64,000 bases of DNA from Woeseiaceae bacterium (lineage in GTDB: Bacteria > Pseudomonadota > Gammaproteobacteria > Steroidobacterales > Woeseiaceae): positions 124,001-188,000 of the forward strand of contig JANQGQ010000018.1 of the NCBI GenBank assembly GCA_028277185.1, in the 5' to 3' direction. A model generated the notes under the pieces. The model had not been told where the DNA came from. It ran no database searches and saw only the letters and a program-made list of their open reading frames with translations. Within the stretch, counting starts at the first letter, position 1. Every line of letters begins with the position of its first letter. Shown piece after piece: positions 8,302 through 55,804 of the stretch. The translations under genes were made by a program, and so were the position numbers.

Positions 8302-8348
8302 CCCCCATATCTTGACAAGCACTCGAACTCTGACGCAAGATCTTGGGG
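8302..8348 (+). promoter_or_regulatory. Two NrdR-like boxes 31 bp apart upstream of nrdAB
   Basis: Cores CCATATCTTG (8305-8314) and CAAGATCTTG (8336-8345) each match 8 of 10 core positions of the published NrdR-box consensus as I recall it (CwAtATaTwG). Their start-to-start distance is exactly 31 bases, the spacing expected for paired NrdR boxes. They flank and overlap a promoter. The nrdR gene is not in this window, so control by NrdR is inferred. Confidence 0.5.
8312..8341 (+). promoter_or_regulatory. Candidate sigma-70 promoter for nrdAB
   Basis: A perfect TTGACA (8312-8317) lies 18 bases before a weak -10 CAAGAT (8336-8341). The -35 overlaps the first NrdR-like box and the -10 overlaps the second, which would allow repression. 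Transcription from here would include the whole cobalamin riboswitch. Confidence 0.45.
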
Positions 8349-8350
8349 TT

Positions 8351-8520
8351 CGTCGGTTCGCCCTTAGCGACTAATAGGGAATCCGGTGCCCGCCTGCCTG
8401 ACGGAAAGCCGGAACTGCCCCCGCAACTGTAAGCAGCACGCTTGCCATCATAGCCACTGGATTGTTCCGGGAAGGCGGCAACGCGGAACACTGCGAGTCA
8501 GGAGACCTGCCGGCAGAACG
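8351..8520 (+). promoter_or_regulatory. Cobalamin (adenosylcobalamin) riboswitch
   Basis: Conserved blocks of the B12 riboswitch occur in the right order: GGGAATCCGGTG (8378-8389), GCCGGAACTGCCCCCGCAAC (8408-8427), GCCACTG (8453-8459), GGGAAGGC (8469-8476) and the B12 box AGTCAGGAGACCTGCC (8496-8511). The outer boundaries are approximate because I did not fold P1. It lies 111 bases before nrdA. In the known nrdAB/nrdJ systems, cobalamin binding reduces class I RNR expression. I did not find an obvious intrinsic terminator between it and nrdA, so control may act on translation. Confidence 0.95.
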
Positions 8521-8631
8521 ATTTGACTCATCGGACGGGGTGTTTCGAGAGGCTTGGTCGTTACGCCGCGTTTCCGCGCCGGGCAACGGCTACCTCTGCA
8601 TCCATCCAAATCGATGCCAAGAGGTAGTGTT

Positions 8632-53602: not shown

Positions 53603-55423
<1,821 letters not shown>

Positions 55424-55493: not shown

Positions 55494-55804
55494 GGGCCTG
55501 TAGCTCAGTTGGTTAGAGCAGGGGACTCATCGAAATGGTGCGCTGAACGCGAAAGCGGTCAGGCAGTACGGGATGAATTCAGGGAAACCTTAGCAGTCAG
55601 GCTGATGGCAACCCTGAGCCAAGCCGCCGGTACACCGGCGGAAGGTGCAGAGACTACCTGAGGGCTTCAGCGCCCTTAATCACAGGCTAGAGCGTCCCGC
55701 CCCTAACGACTCGGTCGAGGGTGATGAGATAGTCCGCTCCATCCGGAAACGGATGGGTACAGTGAATCCCTTGGTCGTAGGTTCGAGTCCTACCGGGCCC
55801 ACCA
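55494..55804 (+). tRNA. tRNA-Ile(CAU) interrupted by a group I intron
   Basis: Exon 1 is 55494-55530 and exon 2 is 55765-55804 (CCA encoded). Joined they make a 77-base cloverleaf: acceptor stem GGGCCTG/CGGGCCC, D-stem GCTC/GAGC, anticodon stem GGGGA/TCCCT, loop CTCATAA with anticodon CAT, T-arm GTAGG-TTCGAGT-CCTAC, and discriminator A. A CAU anticodon with this body, just after rpoD, matches the isoleucine tRNA whose C34 becomes lysidine and reads AUA. The intron enters between U36 of the anticodon and A37. Decoding of AUA codons thus depends on splicing. Confidence 0.95.
55531..55764 (+). ncRNA. Group I self-splicing intron (IC3-like) in tRNA-Ile
   Basis: 234 bases with the hallmarks of small bacterial tRNA introns. 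P1 pairs CAU at the end of exon 1, plus C, with GGTG (55537-55540), leaving U-G at the splice site. P2 has a GAAA loop (CGC-GAAA-GCG, 55548-55557). P4 is CAGGG/CCCTG (55580-55584 and 55612-55616). P6 is GCCGCCGG/CCGGCGG. P7 strands are AGACTA (55650-55655) and TAGTCC. P8 is GGGC/GCCC and P9 is CCATCCG-GAAA-CGGATGG. The last base is G. Conserved joining segments (GGGAAACCT; CCTGAGCCAAGCC) resemble the Azoarcus tRNA-Ile intron, which I recall as 205 nt in the same anticodon loop. No endonuclease gene is inside. Confidence 0.93.

Follow-up and report, generated by a model that had tools for sequence, protein, structure and literature searches.

How a bacterium reads AUA codons when the gene for the corresponding tRNA is interrupted in its anticodon loop, and what kind of element interrupts it, are the questions raised by a locus from a member of the Woeseiaceae. 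The analysed window is the whole 64,000 nt stretch of DNA around it, and all coordinates below are window positions on the forward (+) strand. We arrived at a phage-type group I ribozyme (IA-like, with a P7.1 element), compact and encoding no endonuclease, that interrupts tRNA-Ile2 (CAU), a reading to which we give a probability of about 0.88.

A split tRNA-Ile(CAU) gene downstream of rpoD

The split gene occupies positions 55494–55804, exactly the interval given in the preliminary description, immediately downstream of rpoD (53624–55423). The 5′ exon (55494–55530, nucleotides 1–36 by loop position) ends with the CAU anticodon and the 3′ exon (55765–55804) runs from A37 through CCA. The 234 nt group I intron between U36 and A37 (55531–55764) starts with C and ends in ACAGTG, its last G being 55764. 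Removal of 55531–55764 yields a 77 nt tRNA with an encoded CCA. The model RF00028 matched at 55519–55756 with 75.7 bits (E 2.1e-17; gathering cut-off 50 bits), bearing out the earlier assignment to group I. The split pre-tRNA folded better than 100 of 100 shuffled sequences (z −4.2), and its minimum-energy fold extends the anticodon stem through the 3′-terminal GUG of the intron. Neither of the two neighbours checked, rpoD and an EamA transporter gene, is a homing endonuclease gene. It had been expected that tRNA finders would easily miss the gene, and so they did: ARAGORN without its intron option found zero tRNAs in the window, and the locus is absent from the 51 genome matches of the tRNA model RF00005. 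Elsewhere in the window there is a cobalamin riboswitch (RF00174, 111.3 bits; 8337–8528).

The elements named in the preliminary description, namely the CAU/GUG pairing of P1, P2, core helices, two GAAA tetraloops and a terminal G, were all present; the GAAA loops are L2 and L9, and the core helices run from P3 to P9. P1 (55528–55540) pairs the exonic CAU (55528–55530) and C55531 with GGUG (55537–55540), placing a U·G pair at the splice site that is conserved in 54 of 54 aligned relatives. It is followed by P2 (55543–55562; GAAA loop at 55551–55554), the 5′ strand of P3 (55569–55575; 3′ strand 55693–55699) and a P4-P5-P6-P6a domain (55579–55646) with two-sided changes at all seven P6a pairs. 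The 5′ strand of P7 (55652–55656; 3′ strand 55730–55734) is unchanged in all 54 relatives. The interval from P7 to P3 holds P7.1 (55657–55686), a CCUG/CAGG stem with a nested AGGGC/GCCCU hairpin, and P8 (55701–55721) and P9 (55739–55756; GAAA loop at 55746–55749) complete the structure.

We collected 107 distinct introns from 137 loci with both splice sites, in a search that required G as the last base. The copies are 226–321 nt long, all start with C and 134 of the 137 end in GTG, a repeat of the guide that could pair with the anticodon. None of the 137 contains a homing endonuclease ORF, the longest stop-free frame being 92 codons. Fifty-four representative introns were aligned to the structure drawn on the window copy, and 91.8% of their cells were paired. 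Two-sided changes affected 29 of 70 pairs (21.2 in shuffles) and 360 cells (104.6 in shuffles), and the covariation score was 0.280, against 0.128 for shuffles and 0.038–0.121 for slid-helix controls; 0 of 500 shuffles reached the real value on any measure. The covarying parts are P6a, P9, the inner P7.1 hairpin, inner P8 and portions of P2 and P5. P1, P7 and the outer P7.1 stem are invariant, and P4, P6 and most of P3 nearly so; these helices consequently give no covariation signal. Pairing as drawn on the window copy is lower in P2 (76.9% of cells), P5 (77.7%) and outer P8 (57.9%). The P3–P9 core structure is thus backed by covariation.

The genome is a draft assembly of 4.41 Mb in 44 contigs (98.17% complete), in which the tRNA model gave 51 matches, 50 of them above its cut-off. 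As the preliminary description had supposed from the window alone, the split gene appears to be the sole AUA reader: among the typed tRNA matches of this 98%-complete draft we found neither another tRNA-Ile(CAU), intact copies included, nor a tRNA with a UAU anticodon. Because the assembly is a draft, an intact copy may be missing from it. Both remaining CAU tRNAs presumably serve as elongator and initiator tRNA-Met, judging by the features that we take to mark them. A search with the joined tRNA returned only the 3′ half and weaker relatives among the matches listed, the best of these (87%) being a tRNA-Lys(CUU) gene. The genome encodes TilS, the lysidine synthase (169 bits; cut-off 93.6), and seven genes of the window use AUA, a rare codon there, for 7 of 165 isoleucine codons, one of them in rpoD and two in dnaG. 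The CAU anticodon, a body that we take to be Ile2-like and the presence of TilS together mark the split gene as a predicted tRNA-Ile2 of the lysidine type. Since it is the only AUA reader found, tilS is kept and AUA is used, splicing is very probably essential for growth. No tRNA-Ala(UGC) is among the typed tRNAs of the genome. A 4.3 kb stretch (L062, G000:C30:14200-18500) carries about 15 tRNA genes, one with an odd anticodon call and none with CAU, and resembles the tRNA array of a mobile element.

Lineage of the intron and its insertion site

The best-studied bacterial tRNA introns are of subgroup IC3, and the window intron had been likened to that of Azoarcus. We compared it with ten rows that we take to be IC3, given their likeness to the Azoarcus sequence and their tRNA-Leu or other tRNA hosts (tRNA-Leu, tRNA-Thr, one tRNA(CAU) and one untyped gene). 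P7.1 is a 30 nt insertion relative to RF00028, located after the 5′ strand of P7 and ahead of the 3′ strand of P3. The motif was found in 107 of 107 distinct bacterial copies and was missing from 10 of 10 IC3 rows, in which P7 runs straight into P3. Nine of the ten IC3 rows contain GTGTAGAGACT and all ten have GACGG after P7; the window intron has neither. With the intron alone as query, blastn matched 68 phage records (best E 2e-14), and most phage introns compared have an element at the P7.1 position (the automatic readout misplaced the start of P7 for L286, L277 (526) and one L293 intron). The element is nearly identical in the psbA introns of cyanophages S-SRM01 and S-PM2, and related ones occur in Vibrio phage terL introns and in crAss-like introns. 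The terL intron of Vibrio phage 11895-B1 shares both the P7.1 element and a core that is 80.6% identical over 92 nt. Unlike the window intron, those of S-PM2 and S-SRM01 psbA, 11895-B1 terL and T4 nrdD reside in protein genes, and some phage protein-gene introns have homing endonuclease genes inside or adjacent, which the window intron does not.

A core tree built without the P7.1 element (177 columns; T4 nrdB excluded) separated the ten IC3 rows from 38 others, the window intron among them, with support of 100/99. A second tree that included the element (63 rows; T4 nrdB, Azoarcus, cr55 and R16F_d excluded) separated nine IC3 rows from 54 others (100/100). Within it, tRNA-Lys introns and cyanophage psbA introns nest among the bacterial tRNA-Ile introns, and an AU test did not reject a clade of bacterial tRNA-Ile introns alone (p 0.17). 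Nor, on the first tree, was a clade of the gammaproteobacterial tRNA-Ile introns with Azoarcus rejected (p 0.085), the Azoarcus sequence being a provisional one on a long branch.

Two covariance models were then compared on 37 chosen loci: R1, built from nine IC3 introns, and R2, built from nine phage protein-gene introns and no tRNA intron. The window intron scored 106.1 bits with R2 and 62.6 with R1. The same preference was seen for 15 bacterial tRNA-Ile loci (R2 91.9–120.1, R1 45.5–65.4 bits) and seven viral tRNA(CAU) loci (R2 115.6–172, R1 44.7–76.6 bits), whereas five held-out IC3-like introns, four of them in tRNA-Leu-like genes, scored the other way round (R2 40–57.9, R1 104.6–128 bits). 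Both types share the catalytic core, so each model also gives the opposite type a score well clear of noise.

With P7.1 present and a core that groups away from the IC3 rows, the window intron falls outside IC3, and the extra paired element between P7 and P3 is that of group IA. In subgroup IA2, P7.1 and P7.2 are joined by GUA, as a passage in PMC3428280 has it; T4 nrdD (annotated as group 1A) and Staphylococcus phage introns have two such hairpins joined by GUA. The window intron has one nested hairpin and no GUA linker, so we call it IA-like without an exact subgroup. Passages of a recent survey likewise describe phage introns that may fall outside the named subgroups (PMC11878797). We therefore assign the window intron, on its sequence features, to the phage type (IA-like), in the same lineage as introns of phage terminase and psbA genes. 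Azoarcus (IC3) homology as the better fit was discarded on the motif, the tree and the two models. What holds of the earlier comparison with Azoarcus is the insertion site and the guide pairing; the intron itself is of another type.

The Azoarcus BH72 pre-tRNA-Ile intron resembles the window intron in its small size, its host tRNA-Ile(CAU), the cut after CAU and the guide GUG. It differs in that the provisional sequence used here has no P7.1 between P7 and P3, in its separate core-tree lineage and in the opposite model scores of its IC3 relatives. Passages in the literature describe a GUG-like guide, a CAU-like tag and a U·G pair at its splice site (PMC6274277), and the IC3 label stands in the title of a reference given in PMC3984707. 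A plasmid of Comamonas aquatica carries a 3′ remnant of an Azoarcus-type intron that ends at AATCCG, hence at A37; the IC3 model gives this remnant 23.4 bits, and the phage model does not match it. Since the Azoarcus site and the Comamonas 3′ junction both agree with the window, two distinct group I lineages, IC3 and phage type, occupy the identical position of the same tRNA. The Azoarcus sequence matched 26 of 369 genomes of the class; among 20 loci inspected, none held a complete Azoarcus-like copy at U36/A37 and nine lay in tRNA-Leu-like genes. One IC3 intron in a CAU tRNA (L262) is apparently inserted at another position, U33/C34. Proteobacterial tRNA-Leu(UAA) introns (IC3) are likewise group I introns in a tRNA anticodon loop, and differ in host tRNA, in their IC3 core and in having no P7.1.

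Other group I introns were seen along the way. Phage-type introns also occur in gammaproteobacterial tRNA-Thr(UGU) (L228, L230, L233, L236) and tRNA-Lys(CUU) (L094, L095, L239), at an identical loop position where typed, and IC3 introns in gammaproteobacterial tRNA-Leu-like genes (L257, L264, L265, L269, L272). Seven loci (L082, L084, L088, L093, L100, L242, L249) hold group I introns outside tRNA genes with a common 3′ end like CTGCATGGCGACATGCAGG, and the apparent 23S rRNA gene of a relative has three group I intron matches within 1 kb (L079, G054:C27:1-3500).

Distribution, empty alleles and split tRNAs in phages

Such introns had been thought rare in Gammaproteobacteria, which our counts contradict. 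RF00028 matched, in any host gene, in 38 of 107 genomes of the family (E 0.001), 163 of 396 of the order and 50 of 369 of the class (both E 1e-6). Host typing of 91 loci gave a CAU tRNA split after loop nucleotide 5 in 67; 15 were untyped, and L094, L032 and L253 were mis-typed. A pattern scan recovered an intron with both splice sites in at least 68 of the 119 stretches listed, and the remaining stretches (80 were inspected singly) comprised many intact tRNAs and some chance matches or genes cut by contig ends. Among these matches listed, the carriers belonged to Woeseiales (11), Chromatiales (8), Acidiferrobacterales (3), Lysobacterales (2) and Thiohalobacterales (1), with 43 of 68 lacking an order placement. 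One cultured carrier is Lysobacter daejeonensis GH1-9 (L107). One assembly (G006) has two tRNA-Ile(CAU) copies, each with a different intron (L039, L074), which may reflect a duplicate gene or a mixed bin. A split tRNA-Ile of the usual gammaproteobacterial form (L156) also appears in a metagenome-assembled genome labelled "Halobacteria archaeon", which is probably mislabelled.

Within the family, 37 of 107 genomes have the gene split at this site (in two of them the contig stops within the intron), 55 have it intact, 15 have neither form and none has both. All 56 of the intact loci checked, from the 55 genomes, are CAU tRNAs, and their identity to the joined exons reaches 100%. A chance resemblance to a group I intron is ruled out by these empty alleles together with the covariation. 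Split and intact genes are often found in the same place, with rpoD no more than 600 nt upstream at 19 of the 38 loci that have the intron and 30 of the 56 that do not. Our rpoD tree had 47 rows, of which 18 carry the intron; the 47 of 94 loci that lacked enough rpoD were left out of the tree. Intron state required 13 changes on it, seven of them forced by well-supported branches, and intron presence was unclustered (112 of 500 shuffles were as low). Intron and rpoD distances were not positively related (Mantel r −0.17 for 18 introns, −0.23 within the genus), and the two trees rejected each other in AU tests (p 5e-12 and 0.003; within the genus 4e-5 and 2e-4), with some close pairs concordant between them. 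On this one gene tree the intron appears to turn over rapidly, by frequent transfer or precise loss, with no encoded endonuclease.

CAU tRNAs split in the same way were found in viruses. Five Klebsiella phage records (Muenster, KP13-7, phiKp_21, RCIP0023 and OU509535) have a CAU tRNA split at the same site by the same type of intron. In Muenster it is unannotated and lies inside a tRNA cluster; three further Klebsiella phage records match Muenster at 99.2% over the whole 371 nt query, and OU509535 has the same intron, identically placed, in a CAU tRNA whose body differs. On each of five IMG/VR contigs there is a split CAU tRNA, complete in its acceptor stem, with the same intron type. Eight of ten proteins tried from four of these contigs matched phage families, including a terminase (L438) and a tail fibre (L439). 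The viral tRNAs are named here by their anticodon only, whereas the bacterial one is a tRNA-Ile. The contigs came from a second pattern scan with ten stretches, of which five were split tRNAs; the other five showed no tRNA and appear to be fortuitous matches to coding sequence. A first viral scan gave no split tRNA in 78 stretches, with cut-offs that miss introns longer than about 400 nt. A plasmid search with the window intron gave no match.

In the second tree, seven viral introns were scattered, requiring four changes (three forced by well-supported branches), and a single clade uniting all the bacterial and viral tRNA(CAU) introns was rejected (AU p 0.014). The scatter and the rejected clade point to repeated invasion of CAU tRNAs by phage-type introns. 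According to a passage in a 2014 review, the phage introns then known were all in protein genes (PMC3984707), so the split phage tRNAs are an exception to the pattern given there. The literature that we searched, with few subscription papers, yielded no report of phage-type introns in gammaproteobacterial tRNA-Ile or of phage tRNAs split by group I introns. Group I introns that hide tRNA-Ile2 are themselves of a known kind: the relevant passage on tRNAscan-SE 2.0 reports fMet or Ile2 tRNAs hidden by them in 36 genomes (PMC8450103). The Acidovorax and Burkholderia introns mentioned there hide the same isoacceptor from tRNA finders; the passage gives neither their subgroup nor their sequence. 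What is new here is that the intron is of phage-type lineage, that an intron of another lineage uses the same site, that phages carry split tRNAs and that turnover is apparently rapid.

Proposed splicing pathway and alternative readings

The order of steps, like splicing itself, is inferred. After transcription of the split pre-tRNA, the intron would fold and hold the CAU anticodon against its GUG guide in P1. A guanosine bound in P7 would attack after U36, and U36 would then attack beyond the terminal G of the intron, joining the exons into the 77 nt tRNA. TilS would convert C34 of this tRNA-Ile2 to lysidine, allowing it to read AUA.

An intron of the Azoarcus lineage that had acquired an additional hairpin in the interval from P7 to P3 would explain the shared tRNA, U36/A37 site, CAU/GUG guide pairing and GAAA loops in P2 and P9, and a joint clade with Azoarcus retains p 0.085. 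We consider it very unlikely, as the core tree without that hairpin places the window intron with phage introns (100/99), the models favour phage over IC3 (106 against 63 bits), the hairpin is nearly identical in cyanophage psbA introns and the two IC3 sequence marks are lacking. Least probable of all is a dead intron compensated by an intact tRNA-Ile(CAU) gene that the assembly has missed. A draft that also lacks tRNA-Ala(UGC) among its typed tRNAs leaves room for such a gene, but the core, P1, the 3′ G and the exons are conserved, and the 37 family carriers all lack an intact copy, against 55 other genomes with one and 15 with neither form. Unlikely, though less so, is the idea that splicing needs a host protein, or that the intron regulates the tRNA by pairing its 3′-terminal GUG with the anticodon. 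The 3′ GTG in 134 of 137 copies and the anticodon stem extended through GUG in the minimum-energy fold would fit; against this, the typed tRNA-Thr and tRNA-Lys introns end in CTG, which pairs incompletely with their own anticodons.

The history of the phage-type ribozyme is a separate matter. A single ancient insertion, inherited vertically and lost precisely many times without transfer, would accommodate the close pairs on which intron and rpoD trees agree, and also the empty alleles, which are uninterrupted CAU tRNA genes and in about half the cases share the rpoD-linked location. It is rather doubtful given the 13 changes (seven forced), the lack of clustering, the Mantel r of −0.17 and the mutual rejection of the trees, evidence that is not final because rpoD is a single gene whose base composition is uneven and whose bootstrap values had not settled. 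Our own proposal is a tentative one, which we rate short of even odds: the CAU anticodon loop may be a hot spot invaded independently by IC3 and several phage-type lineages, with phages that carry split CAU tRNAs acting as both reservoir and vehicle, and recombination between phage and host tRNA genes delivering endonuclease-free introns into the essential host tRNA-Ile2. If true, this would account for the fast gain and loss within the family.

A phage-type intron is thus common, across a large bacterial class, in a tRNA expected to be essential. Since alleles with and without the intron occur naturally at a single site in the family, its gain and loss can be measured directly there. For genome annotation, a tRNA finder without an intron model would report the tRNA as missing, and more than 100 distinct introns of this kind were collected here. 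Among the phages, vB_VpaM_R16F of Vibrio (L288) has four group I introns in or beside its terminase gene.
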